A stretch of DNA of 64,000 nucleotides from Perkinsus chesapeaki (Eukaryota > Perkinsozoa > Perkinsida > Perkinsidae), in NCBI GenBank assembly GCA_013115145.1, contig JAAPAO010000047.1, positions 40,425 through 104,424 of the forward strand, read 5' to 3'. The notes beneath the pieces are model-generated. The model was not told the DNA's origin, ran no database searches, and saw only the letters and a program-made list of their open reading frames with translations. This document shows positions 4,401 through 33,100 of the stretch, piece by piece; position 1 is the stretch's first letter, and the number at the start of each line of letters is the position of its first letter. A program made the position numbers and the translations under genes.

Positions 4401-7400
4401 TTTCAGGATATGTGGATACCTTGTATTCATACACTCAAATGTGTGGATAAGAGGGGGATCTGTGGTGGACGTGGGGGAGTGGAGAATCAGTTATTTGTTA
4501 ACTCATGCGCGTGAGTGGGAGGAAGAGCATATCTTTGAAATAAGAAGAACTAGATTGGGAATCTTTGCAGTGCGATACGGTTACGATTGAGCTAGTATAG
4601 CTAAGTAGATATAGTACTGATGATATGCAAGCAGCTTCCGTTGGAAATGTTCATTAAGGAATCTGGCTTCATTGGAATGATTCGGACAAAGTGCAGTAGA
4701 GCATCGTAGAATTGAGGCATCCTAGGTAGCCCATAATAGTCCAGGAGATTCCCCATTGATAACACAGTCAATTTATGATACTATGTCACTTTGTGTGATA
4801 ATATCAGTTTCGCTTCATATAAGGTGGTTAATATTGTAGTGCCTGCGATCCTGTCAGCATTATGATTGTCATCAGATATAAGCCCTATGATGGAGGGTTC
4901 ATTGTGGCTGGCTGCAGTGATGGCAGTTTGCAGTTGTTTAATGAGCGAAAGAGGCAAGTTGACTCATTTGTTACCGGCGAGAGCTGTGAGAGCTTACAGT
5001 ACATCTTTTCTAATGCTAATAACTTTGCAATCTTTAAATTGGGACTGGTTCTGTGTGAAATACTTAAGAAAGACTTTGATTTTACAAGTAAACGGTGTAT
5101 TATTTTTACTTTCAAATTCTCGAGATTACCCCTCCCATATCCACTAGCCTTGACTCACCTCGACGCTGCCTGCCCCCTTTAGATACGGCGAGGCTGATAT
5201 GATAGCCAGAACAGCGCATACAGATGTTGTTACTAGTGTGAAGGTGCTGGAGGATGGGCAGAGAATGTTGAGTCGGAGCTTGGATGGTAAGTAGGGAGCA
5301 CGCGGAGCAAACAAAAGGGGACGAAAGATTCTCCGTAGAAGAACTAATGTGGTGACGGTCGGAGTATCCCTTCCATCTCGATACAGATAATAACCTCATA
5401 TATTTTCCATGCAAGATCCCTCTGCCGATCATGACTCAACGTCAAAGTCCAAGTGTGTGTTTTTGAAGTATACTGTCATTTCTGTACTACTGAGTGGTTT
5501 CCAGTTCTGAAAGGCATTACTTTTTTGCGGCTTGGAGAGGGAATATCTGACTGCACCTATGTCAAGCTAGCGAAGATGATCTCGATATCGATATTTTAAT
5601 ATCCCTGTTTTTGTACTATTTATATTTGATCAGGCACAATGAAGATGTGGGACTGCCGTAAGCTCCGAGCATCTACTCCTGTGAGGACTTGGGAGAATCT
5701 TCCATGCACAGATGAGCATACAGACATCACAATCTCGCCGGATGAGAGCATGGCTTTAACTGGTAAAGTCATTATCAGAATTAAAAAAAGAATTCCTTTG
5801 AAATTTTGACGGGATTTTTTGGACACATCTGTGCAGGCACAAGTGATGGTCGAGTTGTTGCTTTCGATATGCATTCGGAATCTGGCGAGCCATTGAAGGA
5901 GTATACGTTCCGAACTCAGAGTGCAGTTAGGGTAGGTAGAGACTTGACCACCAGTCGAGGCAGGCCACTACTTGGTTGGGGAAAGCCGCACCTTTCTCGG
6001 TTCATCATCGACTTCAGTACATATTTATCCACAGTGCAAATTCAACATTATCTGAGAGATAAGAGTTGCCGTAAAGAATTCTCTCTCGGTTCACTTGTGC
6101 GTGCTTCTGTTGATCGAGGCCGAGGAATGTAGCAAAATGAGCTGAATAATAACCGGTCCTACACAATAGGCTATGCTTCATCAGACTATTGGTATCTTTG
6201 CCAAACGCGTAGCATCTGGAGAAAATGAAGTATTCAAAATCTATGTAGTGCGTTCCGTATATCCTTCCCCCCGCACTCTTCGGATGATAAGGTACCCTAT
6301 TGTTTCAGACATTATGGCATCCTATACTTCAGCAAATAATCGTAGCGTGCAGTGATGGCAACGCTTACTTCCTCTACGACAGATATCAGTCTATTCATGG
6401 TGAGTGAGGGGAGGCGTGGATGCCAGGATTTCCATTACAGGTGCTTTGCTCTTTGCCCAACACAGTGCTCCTAAGAAGAAGGAACTTGAAGAACAGTATA
6501 TGCCACAGAAGGTTTATAATTATGATGAGATGGTTCAGCGAGGCGGGCAATTCAGGGAGACGAGGAGTGGTGAGTCTCATTGGAGTGCCATTTACTTTAT
6601 TTGCCGTGTTGCGGTCCGAAGTTTTCCAGCAATCCTACACTCGATCTCTACAATATCATCATGCTTTGTAATTTGTTGCATTGCTGTAAGGAACAGATAA
6701 TGAAATCTCATGCTGGATGGGGCGGCGGCTGTGGCTAATGTTCGTTTTCCCTGCTCATGGTCCGAGTAGCTTACTAAAGTGATGTTAGGGTAACTGATTC
6801 ACAGCATGCACCTGAGTCTTCTGTTTTCGTTACGGCGCATCCGAGATTTGACAAAAGCATGTCACTATTTAATTAGCATCATCATCATCGGTAGATGTAT
6901 TGAGAAGTGGAACAGGACGATGATGTTATGATCCTTCACATTTCAACCTGTCTTGGTATCGACTTGTTCATTTTATCACTGATAACTTTTTCGCCTGAAA
7001 TGCGTGAACTTTCCTATGTAAGGTAAACTTCGTCGAGTGAGAGATGCCGACAAACGGCGCGACAAGAATCGCCGTGAGAGGATGGGCATTCCGGATCCCG
7101 ACGAGCAGCACAAGGTGAGCATTCATAAGCTCATCAACGACCGGATCTAACTTTGGTGCAGATCAAACCCGCGGCCCCGCCGCCCGAGAGCACCAGCGAG
7201 CCTGCAATGTTTGCTAATAAGCTAGGAATCGAAAAGGAGAAGTATATCGATGAGGATCCACAAAAGGTAGAAACGTCTTCACCGCGGATCGAACCCGGGA
7301 CCTCTTGTTTTGCAGGCACTGCTGGCGGTCGATACTAAGAAGGGCGATTCCTTCGTCAGCCAAGCGTATGCCAGAACTCAACCTCAAAATATCTTGGATT

Positions 7401-7597
7401 ACTCCGATGTCAAGAGTGCGGTAAGGCACAGAATTGGCAATTTCGTGGCGCGCTGGATTTTTCTTCAGGGTGATCGTCTGTTGAGTAAGAAGCGGTACTG
7501 TCCGAAATGTGGTGTGAAGATGTGTACGTGCGGGTACCTTACAGCTTTGGAGAAAGAGGAAGCGCGAAAGAAACGTCGAACTGCTGAAGTACAATAA
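1497..7597 (+). CDS. WDR70: WDR70-like WD40 repeat protein
   Basis: Nuclear WD40 scaffold of the WDR70/gastrulation-defective family, linked in animals and yeast to DNA damage response and chromatin. Exon 1 (1497-1585) begins MSDDEAEMAELRAVRQGRGF. Acidic and Ser-rich exons follow (2.2-2.6 kb). The WD repeats start near 2.98 kb (GSRMVTGGTDGVV), then FWDLNGINAMDPKPFREFTP, GDQYIRDLQHTKGHTATITD, WITSSLDCTIRIWDI, YDGGFIVAGCSDGSLQLF, GTMKMWDCRKL and GTSDGRVVAFDM up to about 5.9 kb. The C-terminal tail has VACSDGNAYFLYDRYQSIHG and FVSQAYARTQPQNIL, the latter matching the SPAYSKTQPK region of WDR70. The order of all blocks fits WDR70. About 15 introns are implied. The last exon adds CPKCGVKMCTCG, a zinc-binding-like motif that I do not recall in animal WDR70. 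The intron at 7267-7315 is tRNA-derived (separate entry). Confidence 0.85.
7267..7315 (-). other. Intron made of an antisense tRNA-Cys 3' half
   Basis: This 49-nt phase-0 intron lies between CAA AAG and GCA CTG of the WDR70-like gene. On the minus strand it reads as the 3' half of a tRNA: loop CTGCAAA (C32, U33, anticodon GCA, A37, A38), 3' stem ACAAG, variable region AGGTC, T-arm CCGGG / TTCGATC / CGCGG (four of five pairs), then an acceptor-like TGAAGAC. The anticodon GCA indicates cysteine. The 3' splice site TTTTGCAG is exactly the reverse of the anticodon loop start. No 5' half is present in the flanking exon. The tRNA resemblance is seen directly; the origin is inferred. Confidence 0.75.
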
Positions 7598-7887: not shown

Positions 7888-9968
7888 ATGGCTGCTGCTG
7901 CCGCCCTTGGCCCTTTTGACATACCCACAACATGGATAGCGTACAGCTTACTGCTCATAGTCATGTTTACACTATCGGGCTGGCAGGTCGAGGGGAAAGT
8001 TGTTTTTGTGAAAGAGCAGCTAAACCCTCTCACGTTCTCCCTTTATCGGCAAGGCAAGTCTGAGCAGCACCTCTGGTTTGTAGCAGACGCCTTGTTGGTC
8101 AGGTTTGACGGCTATCGTGCTGCTCTGCATAATCGACCGGACTTTCAAATCTCCATTGAAAGCTGATCTGCCACTGTTAGCCTATCTTGGAGCTGCCACT
8201 GGTGGATCTACAGTTGCCTTCCTTGTTGGTAAGCAACAACGCCGATCGGCAGAATATATCGAGTTCTGCGCCATTCTTCATGACCATAATGATGATTGGG
8301 TTAGTCTCGGAGAGCTGCGCCTCGTTGCTGGCTTCCAGGATCTCTGATGTTCACTTTGCTACCCTCGCGCATCTCCCTCATGACTACTCGCCTAGGGTAG
8401 CCGGCACCATCACTGCACTGACTGTGTTCCGTGCAGGTCTGGAGCTGTCAACTCCTTTGATAGCGTCAATGCTACAACCAACAGTGTTGGTATTTGCCTA
8501 TATCCTGGGCATGCTGCGTGGGTCTGAACATTACTCCAAGAGACGAGTTCTCGGTGTCGTGATGTGTGTGTCTGCGGCTATTGGAGCTGTCATTAGCGGG
8601 GAACATATCGACGGTCAGTGCTGCTTCTGCTTCTGTTGCTGCTGCTGTGAGTCTTATGACATCTTCTTGATTCAGATGCTCATCCTATAGATTGGCCTGT
8701 CCTTATGGGTGGCCTGCTGATCCTTCTCCAATGTGTCTTCACCTCATCTATTATAGTACTTCAACGTGGGCTTCGTCACCTCTCTCCTCCATATCTTACG
8801 GGTCGGTTGCTCATCATTGCCGCCTGCAATGCCGTACTTTAGGTTTTTCCTATCTTATTGGTTCGATTACTACTCTGTTACTACTATTTAGGTGGGCCAC
8901 TTCCCTTTCTAACTCCTTTTCACCTTCATTCAGTTGGCGTACCGGCTGCACTGTCTTTGACGCCAAGTGTGCGGATATCACTCTGGGTCTTACTTATTCG
9001 GGATCATACAGTTCCGAAGGTAGCTCCTTCATATACTGCATTATCCATGTATGTATAGTCGATATAACACAGGCTCTTGCAAGCGCAATTCTCATTGCCC
9101 TTGAAAAACAGGATCTAGGAAGTTTTCCCGAAATTACAGTCACTTTTTCCACCTCCAAATGGGAAGGCCCGCACAAACTAGGCGGCTAGGTTGGGGTTCA
9201 ACTTGGCCAGTTCGGGAGATACCCAGCGCGGGTTTCCATAACCGTTGATGGCTGCTTTCTCGTCAGGCACGGGACTGCTGGTTTATGCTGTCATCTTCGC
9301 TACATGTTTTGTGTATTGTGCCATGAACTGGTGTAACAGACAAACATCGCCATCTGTGGTAAGCCATAGTATTTCTATACCGTTTATGCGTCATCACTGG
9401 CAGGTGGCTAGTTTCATGACACTTCAACCAGTCACAACAGCTATAGTACAGTATTGGCTGCTAGGAGAGGCGCCATCGCTAATGCAAGTAAATACTATTA
9501 CGATTGGCTTTTCTTGCAAGTTCGCTCCAGTGAGAATCCATATAACTCACATCATTGCCTGTGTACTTTACGCAACCAATTGGGGGCGTGTAGCCTGAAG
9601 AACAACGAGCTCGATAGAAAATTGAGCCGGGAGATAGTGTTTGCGTCTGTCTTACCGAAGCCACCCGGAGGATTACCTACTACTACGCGCTATCTTATCA
9701 CAGTACCGTCACACCATCACGCAACCGGCGATGTGGTTTTGGTGTTTGCTACTAGATTTCACCGGAAGAACAGCGAGCCTTGTATTATCAGGTACTCTTC
9801 TTCCCCTTCATCGTACTTGGTGTCACATTTGTATCATCATCCGGACATCAGGCACGTACGCTAAACGCTGTTGTCGAGAAGGACCATGAACTGCAGCGGA
9901 TTGAGAGCCTCGAACAGGGCAACAGCGAAGGCATCACCAATGGGCGGCGAGGGAATGCTCTTGAATAG
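7888..9968 (+). CDS. EamA/DMT-type transporter, copy 1
   Basis: Multi-pass membrane protein of the drug/metabolite transporter superfamily; the substrate cannot be read from sequence. The ATG at 7888 gives a short N-terminus, then TM1 (WIAYSLLLIVMFTLSGW) and LNPLTFSLYRQ, a typical first-repeat motif. Later exons give AIVLLCIIDRTFKSPLKADL, LSTPLIASMLQPTVLVFAYI, VMCVSAAIGAVISGE, VYAVIFATCFVYCAMNWCNR, and FMTLQPVTTAIVQYWLLGE, the second-repeat signature (TLQPVxTAxxxYxxLGE). The charged tail ends at TAG 9968. About eight introns are implied and some exon limits between 8.2 and 9.2 kb are uncertain. It lies head-to-tail with a diverged paralogue 117 bp downstream, so the pair arose by tandem duplication. 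Confidence 0.75.
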
Positions 9969-26710: not shown

Positions 26711-28090
26711 ATGTTAGCCATCACCACCGCTATCATCTACTCATTTCTATACTCATGTCTATTATCCTCCTCGGTCATCACAGCTCAATATTGGGATAAA
26801 GATCCCCAAGCGAAGGTTATCATACTCCCACAGGAGCGACTTGTTAAATCTGATGGTAGTAAAGGAGGCTGGGGCTTTGCTCAGAACATACAATGCCAAC
26901 AACGGAAGTTACGAAGGCTTTGGGATAAGTGAGAATAGGGAGTTTAAGTTTCGAAGATGTTTTTGTTTAAGTCGAGATTATTGAATGGCTCTTAAATACC
27001 GTGTGATTCAAAGTCTTCAGGTTCATGGCATAACACTCAAAGGGAGAAGATCGACTTTACTGATGCTTGCGGGTATGCAGCCTGTCGAAGCAGATTACTG
27101 CTATCCATTCTCGCTGTTTCTCCGCCATTTCTTTCTTTCATCATTGAAGGTACATTGCGCCGACGGTTGAGGGTGGACCAAGCTCACACTTGCTATCGCA
27201 CGGTTGCCAGCTGTGGTTGGCTGGAAACTACTCGGCTGGGAACCAAAGACAGCTTGAAAGGGAGGCTTTGGTAGATCTGTTCTATGAGCTTAATGGTATG
27301 GATTGGCGCAATAGAGATGGCTGGCTTATTGGTGAGCCATGCTGGAATGATTGGTGAGAAGCTTGGTATGCACGCATGCGCAAGAGCTGGTCTTAGGTAC
27401 GGTGTGGAATGCAACGAGTTCGGATATGTCCGCTCTATTTCGTTGGCAGACAATAGACTTAAAGGGCAGGTCCCAGCAAGTCTTAGTTACCTTATATATT
27501 TAGAGGTGGGCACAGGTTCGAATCCCGGCGGGGGCACTTTAGGCATTATTTACCACTTGCTTAGGAAATATATCTTCACAACACAGCAGATGCATTTCAT
27601 TCCTTTCCAAATCGTGATGCGAACAGAATAACTGGCAGCTTGCCCAGGCTGGGCTCACTTAGGCGGCTCCAGGTAGGCATATCTTATGGTATCTTAGGAA
27701 TCTTGCGAGTGCGTTGCAGGTCTTAGATGTAAGTGGCAATGAAATAGAAGCGCTTCCCTATGATCTGTAATGCATTTAGCCCTCTCCATTCCCAGCCATC
27801 TCGAGCCTAGGTATCGCAACACGAATCTTGAGATTGTGTCGGCCTCGAGAAACCGTTTGACGAAGCTACCGACGTATCTTGGGAGATTGCGCAACCTGAA
27901 GATTCTTCAGCTCCAAGATAACCTTATAGACGATATGTTGCCGATAGCAGAGGTGAAAATCTTCCGGGTGCGCAAATGGAGTATCTTTGTTTGGCATGTG
28001 TAGATTTGCAAGCTACTGAGTATCCAGGTTTTTGATCTTGGGAATAACACAATATCAGGAAAGCTCAGGTGAGCTAGGATGTGTTGGCTA
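26711..28090 (+). CDS. Secreted leucine-rich-repeat protein
   Basis: Extracellular or surface LRR protein; partners unknown. The start at 26711 gives a signal peptide (MLAITTAIIYSFLYSCLLSS, then SVITAQYWDKD). An N-terminal cap typical of plant-type LRR proteins follows: REALVDLFYELNGMDWRNRD and GEPCWNDWYGVEC. Repeats: VRSISLADNRLKGQVPASLS, then after the 27506-27564 intron DANRITGSLPRLGSLRRLQ, VLDVSGNEIEALPYDL, NLEIVSASRNRLTKLPTYLG, NLKILQLQDNLIDDMLP and IQVFDLGNNTISGKL near 28060. Further LRR-like pieces (GLIGEFPTS at about 28330 and LTLLEGNLSDTIDC at about 28730) suggest that the gene continues, perhaps ending at a TAG in the tRNA-like element near 28811. Each repeat sits in its own small exon. 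The exact 3' end is uncertain. Confidence 0.7.
27506..27564 (+). other. LRR-gene intron with sense tRNA T-arm and acceptor
   Basis: This 59-nt phase-0 intron runs from GTGGGC to TTGCTTAG. Its first 31 bases read like the end of a tRNA in the sense direction: ACAGG, TTCGAAT, CCCGG (three of five T-stem pairs), then CGGGGGC and A. No anticodon arm is present. It shares the T-loop core with the antisense elements at 7267 and 29528 but lies in the opposite orientation to them. Confidence 0.55.
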
Positions 28091-28780
28091 GTCGAACTAC
28101 GTCAATGAACGTGGGAGTTGTCACCGCGGCATGACCGCGAATTTCGTGTTAAAGGCAGATCAACCATAAATATCAGGATAGAGATTCCCCTTTTCGATTC
28201 ACCTCGAATTTTCGGAGTCAATTTTTATATCCTTGCATCTTAGTAACTGCCTATCGAGACTTGACCCATTATTATTTGATATCTCCGCTTCACATCCAAG
28301 AGGTATGCCAGTTGGTAAGGGCCTTATTGGAGAGTTCCCCACATCAGTAAGAGCTATTAGTATGTATAGGGTAGGTTATGGTAGGTAATACCAGCTTGGA
28401 AGAATATACAGGATGGGTATCTATCGGTATACTTCCAGTTCTATATGACTGGTCATATTGCTAGTGCTTGCAGCGATATACGTTACTGTTATCAGTAGGA
28501 CCCATATGGTGGTGTGAAATTCCTAATGCACGGATATGAATGGGATTTTGAGAAAAATCAAAGCATCGAATATTCTGCGGTGAATATTATCCTGCTGTGC
28601 TTAATCCTCGATGCTCTCTCCTATTTAAGGCTCATAGTGTAATGGTGCTTTAGGTTTATGTATGATACTCATGGTGACCTTACATGGGCCAGTGCGGGGG
28701 AAATACCGGATGTTGTCATGGAGACTGTTAACCTTGCTCGAGGGCAATCTGTCTGATACTATAGACTGTTGGGTTAAAAA

Positions 28781-28824
28781 CACCGTAGCCGGGGATCGAA
28801 CCTGCGCACTGTAGATTCTCACAG
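28781..28824 (-). other. tRNA-like 3' half between the LRR and GcvH genes
   Basis: On the minus strand from 28824: CTGTGAG, then AATCT, a spacer, GCAGG, TTCGATC, CCCGG, CTACGGT, G, followed at 28780-28776 by TTTTT, a Pol III-type terminator. If CTGTG is C32-U33-GTG the anticodon would be histidine. No matching 5' acceptor half is present upstream. On the plus strand it supplies TTCTCACAG, a good splice acceptor 20 nt before the GcvH ATG. In a spliced-leader organism this could be the trans-splice site; that is inference. Confidence 0.5.
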
Positions 28825-28843
28825 TCTCTGATCCAACACTGTA

Positions 28844-29700
28844 ATGCTCGTCGTCGTCGGCGCCCTCCGCCAAACAGCCGCCAGCAGCGTATTGGGCATG
28901 CGAGCTGCTGCTGCCTTGCGCATGCGTGCATACCGCTCCTTCGCTACAACTACAGTTTTTACTAAGAGCCATGAATGGATTAAAGTGGACGGCAATAATG
29001 CTACTGTTGGAATAACGAACTATGCTCAAGATCAATTGGGGGAGATTGTGTAATAACTAGCTTTAAGATATCTTACTCCGAATCCTAGTCGGTGGGATGA
29101 TAGCCACACGGTTACTTGAAGGGGCTGGCTTTTTTCAAAGCTATAGAGGGAAATATTTTGAGTTCACAAAAAAGAATCACCGTAAAGGGTTAGCATCGTC
29201 GTCTGAGAATCGTTATTCTGGCATGATCGGTAGGGGTTGGCTGTCACTAGGTCCCTACTGGTAACAAAGTATGTGCAAATTCAGGCGGCTGCGGGTTCGA
29301 TTCCTGGGACCGTTTATTTTTTCGTGTTTTTCCTTGGCAAACTCGTGATAGTGTACGGTACTTATTATATACTTTTATAGTAGGAATTACTGACAGACAA
29401 AGAGGAATCTCATTGCTGGATTTGAGTGGCTGTTTGTCAGGTATGTTGACTTTCCACCGATAGGAACTAAGCTTAAGGGAGGAGATACAATGTGTACTTT
29501 GGAGAGTGTTAAGGCAGTTGGGGAAGTGTAATGTCGGGGCCAGGGATCGAACCAGGGACCTTTAGTGATTTAGGTATTGTCCGTTACCCAAAGGAGGTGA
29601 AGTGACGGAGGTTAATAGCGCTCTGGAGGATAGCCCATCACAAGTTAATGAAGCAGCTGAAGGAGATGGATGGCTGGTTAAACTCAACTTCGAGTACTGA
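28844..29700 (+). CDS. GCVH: Glycine cleavage system H protein, mitochondrial
   Basis: Lipoyl carrier of the glycine cleavage complex; it shuttles the aminomethyl group between P and T proteins in mitochondria. Exons are 28844-29049, 29441-29527 and 29574-29700, giving 139 residues, near the usual length. The N-terminus ([20 protein letters not shown] through [10 protein letters not shown]) is Ala/Arg-rich, as in a mitochondrial targeting peptide. The mature part begins [20 protein letters not shown] and continues [20 protein letters not shown]. The lipoylation lysine is in [10 protein letters not shown]. The end reads [20 protein letters not shown] then LVKLNFEY. Between GE and EVTE the usual APVSG is PLPKGG. 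Both introns are phase 2. Intron 1 holds a tRNA-like gene at 29250; intron 2 is an antisense tRNA half. Confidence 0.92.
29250..29312 (+). other. tRNA-like sequence with T-run in GcvH intron 1
   Basis: Begins GGTCCC and ends GGGACC, a perfect 6-bp acceptor-type pairing 63 nt long overall. It contains GTGCAAATTCAG (possible GCA anticodon, cysteine), then GCGGG, TTCGATT, CCTGG, a T-arm with four of five pairs. It is followed by TTTATTTTTT, a Pol III-type stop. It is too short and lacks a proper D-arm, so it is probably a degenerate tRNA or tRNA-derived repeat rather than a working gene. Confidence 0.5.
29528..29573 (-). other. Intron made of an antisense tRNA 3' half (Phe-like)
   Basis: The whole of GcvH intron 2 (46 nt, GTAATG to GATTTAG). 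On the minus strand it reads CTAAATC (loop), ACTAA (stem), AGGTC (variable), CCTGG / TTCGATC / CCTGG (T-arm, four of five pairs), CCCCGAC, A. The stretch CTAAAGGTCCCTGGTTCGAT matches what I recall of eukaryotic tRNA-Phe exactly, with the anticodon loop changed. As in the WDR70 intron, the tRNA part begins at base 32 and its reverse provides the splice acceptor AG. Confidence 0.75.
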
Positions 29701-30127: not shown

Positions 30128-33100
30128 ATGGCGGCGGCTGGTGGTTATAATCCTCCGGAAGCGAGTATGCTCACTCGTGGGGCAATAAGTCGTCTGGCTG
30201 AATTGAGCCCAGGCGAGCTCTCCGGGTAAGAGGGATGGGATATCTAAAATAGGGAATTACTCCAGGGCTTCCTCGAAGGTGAAGCGATATCGGCACAATA
30301 TCTTTTATTCATATCGAACCCCTTTGAAGAAAGCCTGGTACATTTCTTGCGCGGGCATTTTTTAGAATATTCACGGGTGGCCGCAGTCGGGGCTGAGGTG
30401 AGAATTTCATGGAGACTATGATGATATAGGTTTCTTCTTACCTGTATATAATTCCACCTCAGCCCCGACTGCGGCCACCCGTGTATTGTATTGAAAGAAA
30501 TATGATACAGTATTGAAAGAAATATGATACATTTTATCATCTTGATGATAATCTGATAACACCATATTATTGCTAATATCCGCTACTGTCCTTCTCACTT
30601 CCAATAGGTTCCATCCAACCCTCCAAATAACTGCCGTATCAGCGATGGGGATAGCGGAGAATGGCGTCCGTAGACTGCGTGTGGTCCTCTCAGATGGAAC
30701 GTAGGGACTTGACGATCTTTGTTGGTCCACAGATGTTATCAGACATTGCTCCAGTGCAATGCCGTTCGGTCCCCTCCTGCAGAGTAACGTCCAGTTCCGA
30801 CAGTTCGCATTGGTACGGTAGCCTTGGTCTTTTGTCACTTTCTGTATTATTGGCGCAGGGTCGCTGTACTTTTGCATCAGCGAATGTGAAGGGGAAGCAT
30901 GTGGTGCTGCTGAAGGAATATGAGGAGGTAACGAAGGGTTCTGGGGGCATTCTTCGGGGGGCATAGTGGAAGTGGATAGTATTATAGGATAGTTTCTATT
31001 GAATGAGATGGAGCTTTACGGTAGTTAGGACCGAACCAGGATTTAGTTGAATTGGTTGAAACAGATTAGAAACAGCAAAAGTGAAATAGCCAATTACCAA
31101 CCCTCGCTCTTCTTTCAGCGGTTCTGATTTCCTTTGTTTTTTCTCATACTTCTTAACTGGAAGTATGTGGAGGGTATTACTGATAAGAGAATGCGCATAA
31201 GGGTTTTGTGTTGCTGTTTATCAGGTTCGGCCGCCACTTCGTGACACCATTGGGAATCCAACCCTCTACCGTCCAAGCTCAGCTGTGGCTAATAACGCCA
31301 ATCATGAGAATGCGCCTTCTCATGGGGTGATCTCCTCTACCCCCAGGAATCAGCGCTCCTTTCAGAATGGCATGGGACAGCAAAATGCCGCGATTCACCA
31401 GAATCCACCACTGCACCAATACCCTACACTGGATGGGCCACCGCAGGGGAAGCAGCAAGCTGGCGGTTATCAATATGGAGGAACTGTAGGGGTGAGCCTA
31501 CCTGAGCGGACTTCTGCATCTGAGTCTCATCCTTTGGCGTGTTCAATGGCTTGAAATTAAGGTTGGTTACAAGTCGACTATCGGTGAGAATTAGAAGATG
31601 GAGTTGACCCCGTTGATGGCGATGGCACATTAGTTGAGCCAAGGAGATGTGAACGAGTTTGAATATCTCATGTTGACTCTTACGCCGCCATAAAGATTAA
31701 TAACACTATGTCATCTGAAGTTTTATATGAATGCAAAGGCGCTTTATATTACTATTGTTATGGAATGACTTTATTTCTTTTAGACTCAATATCAACAGCA
31801 GCAGCAGCAGCCTCATAGTGGAGGCAGTAGTAGTGGCCTTGGGAGTAACAATGGCTCTGCTGCTTCAAGTGGGAGGCAATTACCGACTTATATGCAACAA
31901 CAACAACCACTGCAGCAGCAGCAGCAGAATCAGCATAAAGTTGCTGGGCCTCCTCTACGAGCACATCCTACAAACCCATATCAGGTAGTGAGGGTCTTCC
32001 GTTCTCTACGTGACAATGTCCCTTGTTGATTCGACGAAAACTAGCCTATGGCAAATTTATAATGTGTAAAATATTACTCTATATCATCCCCTCTATAGTG
32101 TACTTCATTAATTCCTTTCGCATCATGGTTTTCTTTTACAGCAACAACCAATCGGTGGAGGGATGCTCGCGCGTCAACAAAGTGTAACACTTGGTGGTAA
32201 TCCTCAAGGCCCGTCGGCCTATGGTGGTAGTACCGGAGTGCAACATCAGCAGCAACAACAAGCGGCAGCATCAAGGCAGCAGCAGAATCCATACGGGGCA
32301 GGAGCGCATCACGGAGGTAGTAGAGAGGGGAGGATGGCGATGGTGGGAGGAAATGCCATACTAGTCTCAAGTTTGTTCCTGTGAATCGATAGAATTAGCA
32401 TATGCTATATTGGCCTTGTGTACCTGTTGGCCATTTCTATTTGGTGGGAGCTCACTAGATGATTTCGTGTATTCTTGAGGTGACAATTGGTTTTCTTGTT
32501 CAGGTGGTGGCCCTGTTAGCTATAGGCCTGTGGCTAATGATATTATCCCTATATCACAGCTTAGCGTATATTCACAAAAGTACTAATATGCCGGCGGGCA
32601 TTCTGTGGGCAATTTTTGTGCCGTTCAGATGGACCATCAAAGGTCGAGTATCCAGCAAGTCTGATGTCCGTACATTCACTAATAGCCGCGGAGAGGGGCA
32701 ATTATTCTCCATTGAGATAGTCGATGACCAGAGTGCAGAGATTCGAGCCACATTCTTCAACTCGGTAGTAGTTGGGCAGGGGTGGTTGGGTGGATCACAT
32801 TGATTCCTAAGCTCTTTCCGACCAGCATGTATTGTGTATATCATGAACTTTATTTAATTATAACCGCCAATAACATAGACAGGGATAATAAATACAAGTA
32901 TACGAAAGCCTCGAAAGGTAGTTCATTTATAGAACAGGTAAGATACTATTGATATATAGGAGAAAGTTTCTTCAAAGTGACTTTACCATTTTTAGTTCCG
33001 AAATTGTGTGACATATTTTCCGCCACTTTCCATCAGGCCGTTACGAAGTTCTTCCCGATGATTCAGCAAGGAAGAGTGTATACGTTTAGCAAAGGCCAAG

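Follow-up and report, generated by a model that had tools for sequence, protein, structure and literature searches.

Short sequences derived from tRNA genes appear to serve as whole introns in the Perkinsus chesapeaki genome. Nine such elements are introns as judged by protein homology, five lying antisense and four sense, and the presence of tRNA-derived introns in this genome is well supported at the level of sequence. The preliminary description of the stretch analysed here (64,000 nucleotides in all, the window, carried by contig 412 of an assembly of 35.4 Mb and 884 contigs) had taken one intron to be a tRNA 3′ half; that a 3′-half sequence can make up an entire intron holds repeatedly, in these nine cases. 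The best explanation, and in our judgement a rather probable one, is that tRNA-gene-derived elements are dispersed in the genome and removed as introns when they lie in coding exons.

The intron first described lies in a WDR70 orthologue, whose best-matching protein comes from Perkinsus marinus (88% identity across 61% of the query). The features concerned are:

7162..7266, + strand: WDR70 exon 5′ of the 49-nt intron, assigned by eye, reading frame closed
7267..7315, + strand: 49-nt intron of the WDR70 orthologue, predicted from letters, homology and frame; antisense tRNA 3′ half running from tRNA position 80 to 32
7270..7310, − strand: match to the element profile, 38.4 bits, tRNA positions 37–77
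7316..7421, + strand: WDR70 exon 3′ of the 49-nt intron, assigned by eye, reading frame closed

The letters and coordinates had been described exactly, with GT at 7267, AG at 7314–7315 and a length of 49 nt. Reverse-complemented, the intron becomes CTGCAAA / ACAAG / AGGTC / CCGGG-TTCGATC-CGCGG, in which every tRNA element previously named is present; the T-stem has one mismatch (4/5 pairs). When the spliced protein was aligned with its 50 best homologues, no row had an insertion at the junction between DPQK and ALLAVD, where P. marinus WDR70 reads DPQKTLLAVETK. Since the homologues lack an insertion there, 7267–7315 is read as an intron, as had been proposed, and its retention would shift the frame and bring a stop at codon 24. 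Its GT...AG ends, and a predicted removal that restores a conserved protein, are those of a spliceosomal intron. By its sequence this intron is an antisense tRNA 3′ half, extending from base 32 to the T-run after base 73, and the profile that scored it was built without the window's own rows. Neither ARAGORN nor Rfam (at gathering scores or at E up to 10) reported a tRNA in the window; the likeness to tRNA is one of letters, not of fold. Two further WDR70 introns, 7115–7161 (47 nt) and 7422–7469 (48 nt), have no tRNA likeness.

The genome was searched with a pattern covering tRNA positions 32–61 (C32, U33, RGGTC, GGTTCGA and C61, one mismatch allowed). This gave 544 matches, against 6 for the same pattern reversed as a control. 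Among the 100 matches listed of the 544, all of them mismatch-free, 28 were taken for tRNA genes, because the same string recurred or resemblance was close. The remaining 72 were all inspected (69 in 67 stretches, two in the window and one in L010), and together with L011 they form a set of 73 rows. A profile was built from 71 of these rows, leaving out the window's two and ignoring bases 32–36, and was run over 257.6 kb comprising the window and 20 stretches chosen for tRNA genes, not for these elements. At 13 bits or above there were 51 matches, of which 24 carried tRNA-gene labels and a further 8 could be recognised as such genes, leaving 19. The same 258 kb gave no match reaching 13 bits when shuffled by trinucleotides (four times) or when searched with column-permuted profiles (six of them). 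Ordinary introns that resemble a tRNA 3′ half by chance might be expected where introns are short, as they are in this genome, and where C-U reversed gives AG; with 544 matches against 6, and 19 against none in shuffles and permuted profiles, we reject this reading as hardly credible. The density of non-gene elements, one per 13.6 kb, extrapolates from the 19 in 258 kb to roughly 2,600 copies genome-wide if the sample is typical. Few profile matches in the 258 kb scored between 5 and 16 bits, that is, few copies are partly decayed. In stretch L021, three tRNA-derived elements lie on both strands within 0.5 kb (8140–8623). Near-identical tRNA-Arg(TCT) genes form clusters, on both strands or in tandem, in L017 (contig 440) and L013 (contig 328).

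Beyond the letters of the pattern, the 73 rows share A37, A38, C40, A42, A43, C or G49, C50, T59, C60, C62, G70, C72, A73 and TTTT at 74–77, while bases 34, 35, 51 and 66–69 and the far flanks are near random. A73 and TTTT are conserved though absent from the selecting pattern, and the T-run resembles a Pol III terminator in form. The elements carry a B box and a terminator-like T-run at tRNA spacing, as tRNA genes do, the B box having belonged to the selecting pattern. No column past base 77 is conserved in the 73 rows, and so there is no SINE-type body or tail. In a second form of the element, which looks as though a different type of tRNA had been its source, GGGC or GCGC before GCAGG replaces AGGTC; this form occurs in the window at 27500 and 28777, in L016 at 7174 and 7935, in L020 at 9156 and in L022 at 86.

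The class does not keep the tRNA fold. T-stem pairing was found at 49–65 in 26/73 rows (34.9 in shuffles), at 50–64 in 46/73 (43.1) and at 51–63 in 34/73 (28.1), and acceptor-stem pairing is limited to tRNA genes and L046 (7/7 pairs, with 0.5 expected in the set). Because both kinds of pairing are lost, a direct tRNA origin rests on the letters. The tRNA covariance models put forward in the preliminary description as a detector proved unsuited: RF00005 matched one of 60 loci tested (L092–L098, L010 and L011 lay outside this test) and nothing in the window. With unpaired stems as well, a structured tRNA is rejected for the class. The one locus matched, L046, holds a tRNA-like sequence of 54 nt at 490–543, which scored 31.7 bits; it lacks a D-arm, and its acceptor stem has 7 pairs.

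A single recent master copy is not seen either. Among the 90 elements compared, a part of those in the genome, none were near-identical; the best pair reached 0.86 over bases 37–73, and identity over the variable columns was 0.27. The best match of any element to a tRNA gene was 0.76, among 26 sequences that form part of the genome's set and one entered by hand.

Evidence that these elements are introns came from protein homology. The antisense cases are those in genes for WDR70, GcvH, DnaJ, Sof1 and adenylosuccinate synthetase. In DnaJ (L042) the predicted splice junction is free of gaps in the homology alignment. Pfam was applied to 30 candidate splices, and in six the match, judged from its residue ranges, spanned the junction above the curated cut-off:

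Sof1 (L097), antisense element: residues 1–86 on profile positions 2–87
Adenylosuccinate synthetase (L052), antisense element: residues 7–109 on 208–310
DUF726 (L034), sense element: residues 4–97 on 146–239
ENTH (L084), sense element: residues 24–99 on 2–77
Dynein AAA_7 (L088), sense element: residues 14–92 on 90–168
PAP2_C (L033), sense element: residues 32–88 on 1–59

There was no match in 17 of the 30 (E 0.01), and in seven it was weak, partial or irrelevant. The introns in L088 and L033 are multiples of three in length and read without a stop if retained, so that homology is the sole argument for their splicing. Retention in L052 changes the frame, yet meets no stop in the stretch read.

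The fifth antisense gene, for glycine cleavage H protein (GcvH), lies in the window, where the following were found:

27500..27540, + strand: tRNA-derived element, sense, 19.7 bits; AG after it, no intron evidence (score 2.3)
28777..28817, − strand: tRNA-derived element, 31.5 bits, a short way 5′ of the start codon of GcvH (28844)
29279..29319, + strand: tRNA-derived element, sense, 20.8 bits, within the 391-nt GcvH intron 29050–29440
29528..29573, + strand: 46-nt intron of GcvH, predicted from letters and homology; antisense tRNA 3′ half, last base at tRNA position 32

The alignment has no gap at the 29528–29573 junction, and an insertion of two residues follows a few positions later. The 391-nt intron was assigned by frame and by homology of the joined protein. 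Three elements thus lie in or just before one gene (28777–29573): the first precedes the start codon, the second sits within a longer intron and the third forms a whole intron. At 28823–28824, 19 nt 5′ of the start codon, there is an AG that one may guess to be a spliced-leader acceptor. Nearby, 30374–30481 is a long inverted repeat, MIR2118_2-like by Rfam at 48.8 bits, far below the family cut-off of 120.

A codon model, for which 45 of 107 long reading frames served as the training set, was added to the homology; it replaced an earlier four-gene model that was weak. Intron scores of at least 6 were obtained for 39 of the 90 elements (22 sense and 17 antisense). Random places gave about 5 per orientation, about 10 over both, and therefore some 10 of the 39 may be false. 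Among the profile-found elements, for which no CT was required, 9/19 reached this score where about 2 were expected; one of the nine is probably false, namely the element at 28777 read in sense, which overlaps coding sequence of GcvH.

Splice ends for the 39 candidates were searched in preset ranges, which bound the scatter of the 5′ ends. Antisense candidates started at tRNA positions 76–83 in 14/17 and ended exactly at base 32 in 11/17, all 11 coming from the set picked for CT at 32–33, so that this peak is partly built in. Among the four profile-found antisense candidates, two end at 32 (WDR70 and GcvH) and the others at 27 and 40. Sense candidates ended at 78–82 in 11/22, with starts scattered from 2 to 42. 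The four sense introns by homology run over 35–80, 2–85, 26–85 and 42–86 (the last, L088, from its letters), ending at 80 in one and at 85–86 in three. In antisense copies the AG is U33-C32 reversed and the GT lies beyond the T-run; in sense copies the 3′ site is T-rich sequence and an AG after base 73. The D-loop (GGTAGAG) is possibly the modelled sense 5′ site at 13–19 in L039, L081, L092 and L013. Intron ends thus fall close to element ends.

These positions bear on the origin first suggested, in which halves of mature tRNAs, here tRNA-Cys, were reverse-transcribed or ligated and inserted only in antisense. The proposal that C32-U33 brings its own 3′ splice site finds support in the 11/17 antisense candidates that end exactly at base 32, tempered by the part that the CT-requiring pattern had in producing that peak. 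A 5′ half, moreover, is recognisable in just 12/90 elements, against 3.3 expected, counting the 84-nt intron of L084 at only 2.5 bits. Mature halves do not fit the 3′ end, where the profile has TTTT after A73 and no CCA. Antisense insertion describes five of the introns by homology, and the four sense introns make the class wider. Nor was tRNA-Cys the closest tRNA gene compared. Over 42 columns, 7267–7315 resembles the sole tRNA-Cys gene compared (L015) at 0.57 and tRNA-Arg(TCG) at 0.60, and the anticodon letters are near random across the 73 elements; a tRNA-Cys source was rejected on these grounds. Taken whole, the mature-half origin is very improbable.

A different reading is that the sequences are kept for a function, such as TFIIIC binding at their B box (GGTTCGANNCC) or some influence on splicing, and that they lie in introns because a compact genome has its free space there. 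Elements were picked by letters outside the B box, which was left unscored, and of 34 candidates in the 258 kb, 11 had 0–2 B-box mismatches, one had 3 and 22 had at least 5. These counts, the scarcity of decayed copies and the retention of letters but not stems would suit such a function, as would human intronic mitochondrial-type tRNAs, reported to raise splicing in either orientation (PMC7722341). The profile itself, however, was built from elements picked for their B box, and a B-box role leaves the match of intron ends to element ends unexplained. We consider this reading quite unlikely, though the few decayed copies and the B-box counts hint at some factor other than age that may preserve the sequence.

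Under the favoured explanation, many short tRNA-gene-derived elements are scattered over this Perkinsus-like genome, most of them reduced to a tRNA 3′ half with the T-run after base 73. The likely route would be by way of Pol III-type transcripts retaining the 3′ T-run, most of them cut short on the 5′ side, giving units that span from within a tRNA to just past the terminator-like T-run, in either direction. Such units would have founded introns by insertion into exons. An element in a coding exon would be removed as a spliceosomal intron because tRNA-gene sequence has splice-site-like motifs on both strands. In antisense these would be the AG from U33-C32 and a GT(A/G) just past the T-run. 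In sense, the T-rich sequence and AG after base 73 would be joined to a 5′ site in the variable loop (GTAAGGTC or GTAGGTC), in the stretch around C32 or possibly in the D-loop.

Against this founding view, few copies are partly decayed (5–16 bits), which is odd for an old neutral family, and there are neither recent copies nor a signal of target-site duplication; at the splice sites of the 39 candidates the mean longest repeat was 3.67, against 3.74 in the control. It could also be that pre-existing introns received the elements or were overwritten by them, and that introns look founded by elements where they are about as short. The 47- and 48-nt WDR70 introns that lack tRNA likeness favour this, as does the element at 29279, which sits inside a 391-nt intron. 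In the short introns by homology (46–60 nt), however, the element spans from splice site to splice site, and repeated end-to-end replacement would need a special process. We regard pre-existing introns as an unlikely source of the pattern.

tRNA-derived SINEs and tRNA pseudogenes are dispersed, of Pol III type and often truncated at the 5′ side, and the elements here are alike in all three respects. They differ from SINEs in having no body or tail past the T-run, no target-site duplications and no recent copies. Introners and introner-like elements (PMC9860276; Amoebophrya, PMC7789003) are described as one dispersed element found in many introns and spliced whole, and here too the same element is found as many introns of one genome (nine by homology, 39/90 by the codon model). 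In contrast to introners as described there, the present element is tRNA-derived and used in both orientations, and for it no terminal inverted repeats are described and no duplications were found. By term search the main text of PMC9860276 mentions neither tRNA nor SINE, and PMC7789003 mentions tRNA twice. Human nimtRNAs are likewise tRNA sequence within introns and are reported to act on splicing even as the reverse complement, T-arm deletion being most harmful; they keep the cloverleaf and lie inside introns (PMC7722341), whereas the present elements have lost the fold and themselves make up the intron. PMC3443670 reviews seven mechanisms of intron gain, and none of its section headings refers to a route by way of tRNA genes; the nearest of the seven are transposon insertion and intronization. 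Among the matches listed in the literature, which took in few subscription papers or preprints, no title or abstract opening describes introns made of tRNA sequence.

The origin of introns is an old open question, and these data suggest that scattered tRNA-gene fragments can turn into introns. The evidence is evenly poised on the broader claim that tRNA genes are proto-introns on both strands, their near-miss splice sites being letters required in tRNAs in any case (U33 with C32, the D-loop, the variable loop and the terminator), and that their dispersed fragments founded introns numbering on the order of a thousand in the lineage. A search by tRNA covariance model would overlook most introns of this kind, since their letters persist after the fold has been lost. 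If pieces of tRNA genes do found introns, their source would be common to all eukaryotes and their splice sites would stem from letters conserved in tRNAs, so that the idea could be put to the test with reporter genes and in other genomes.
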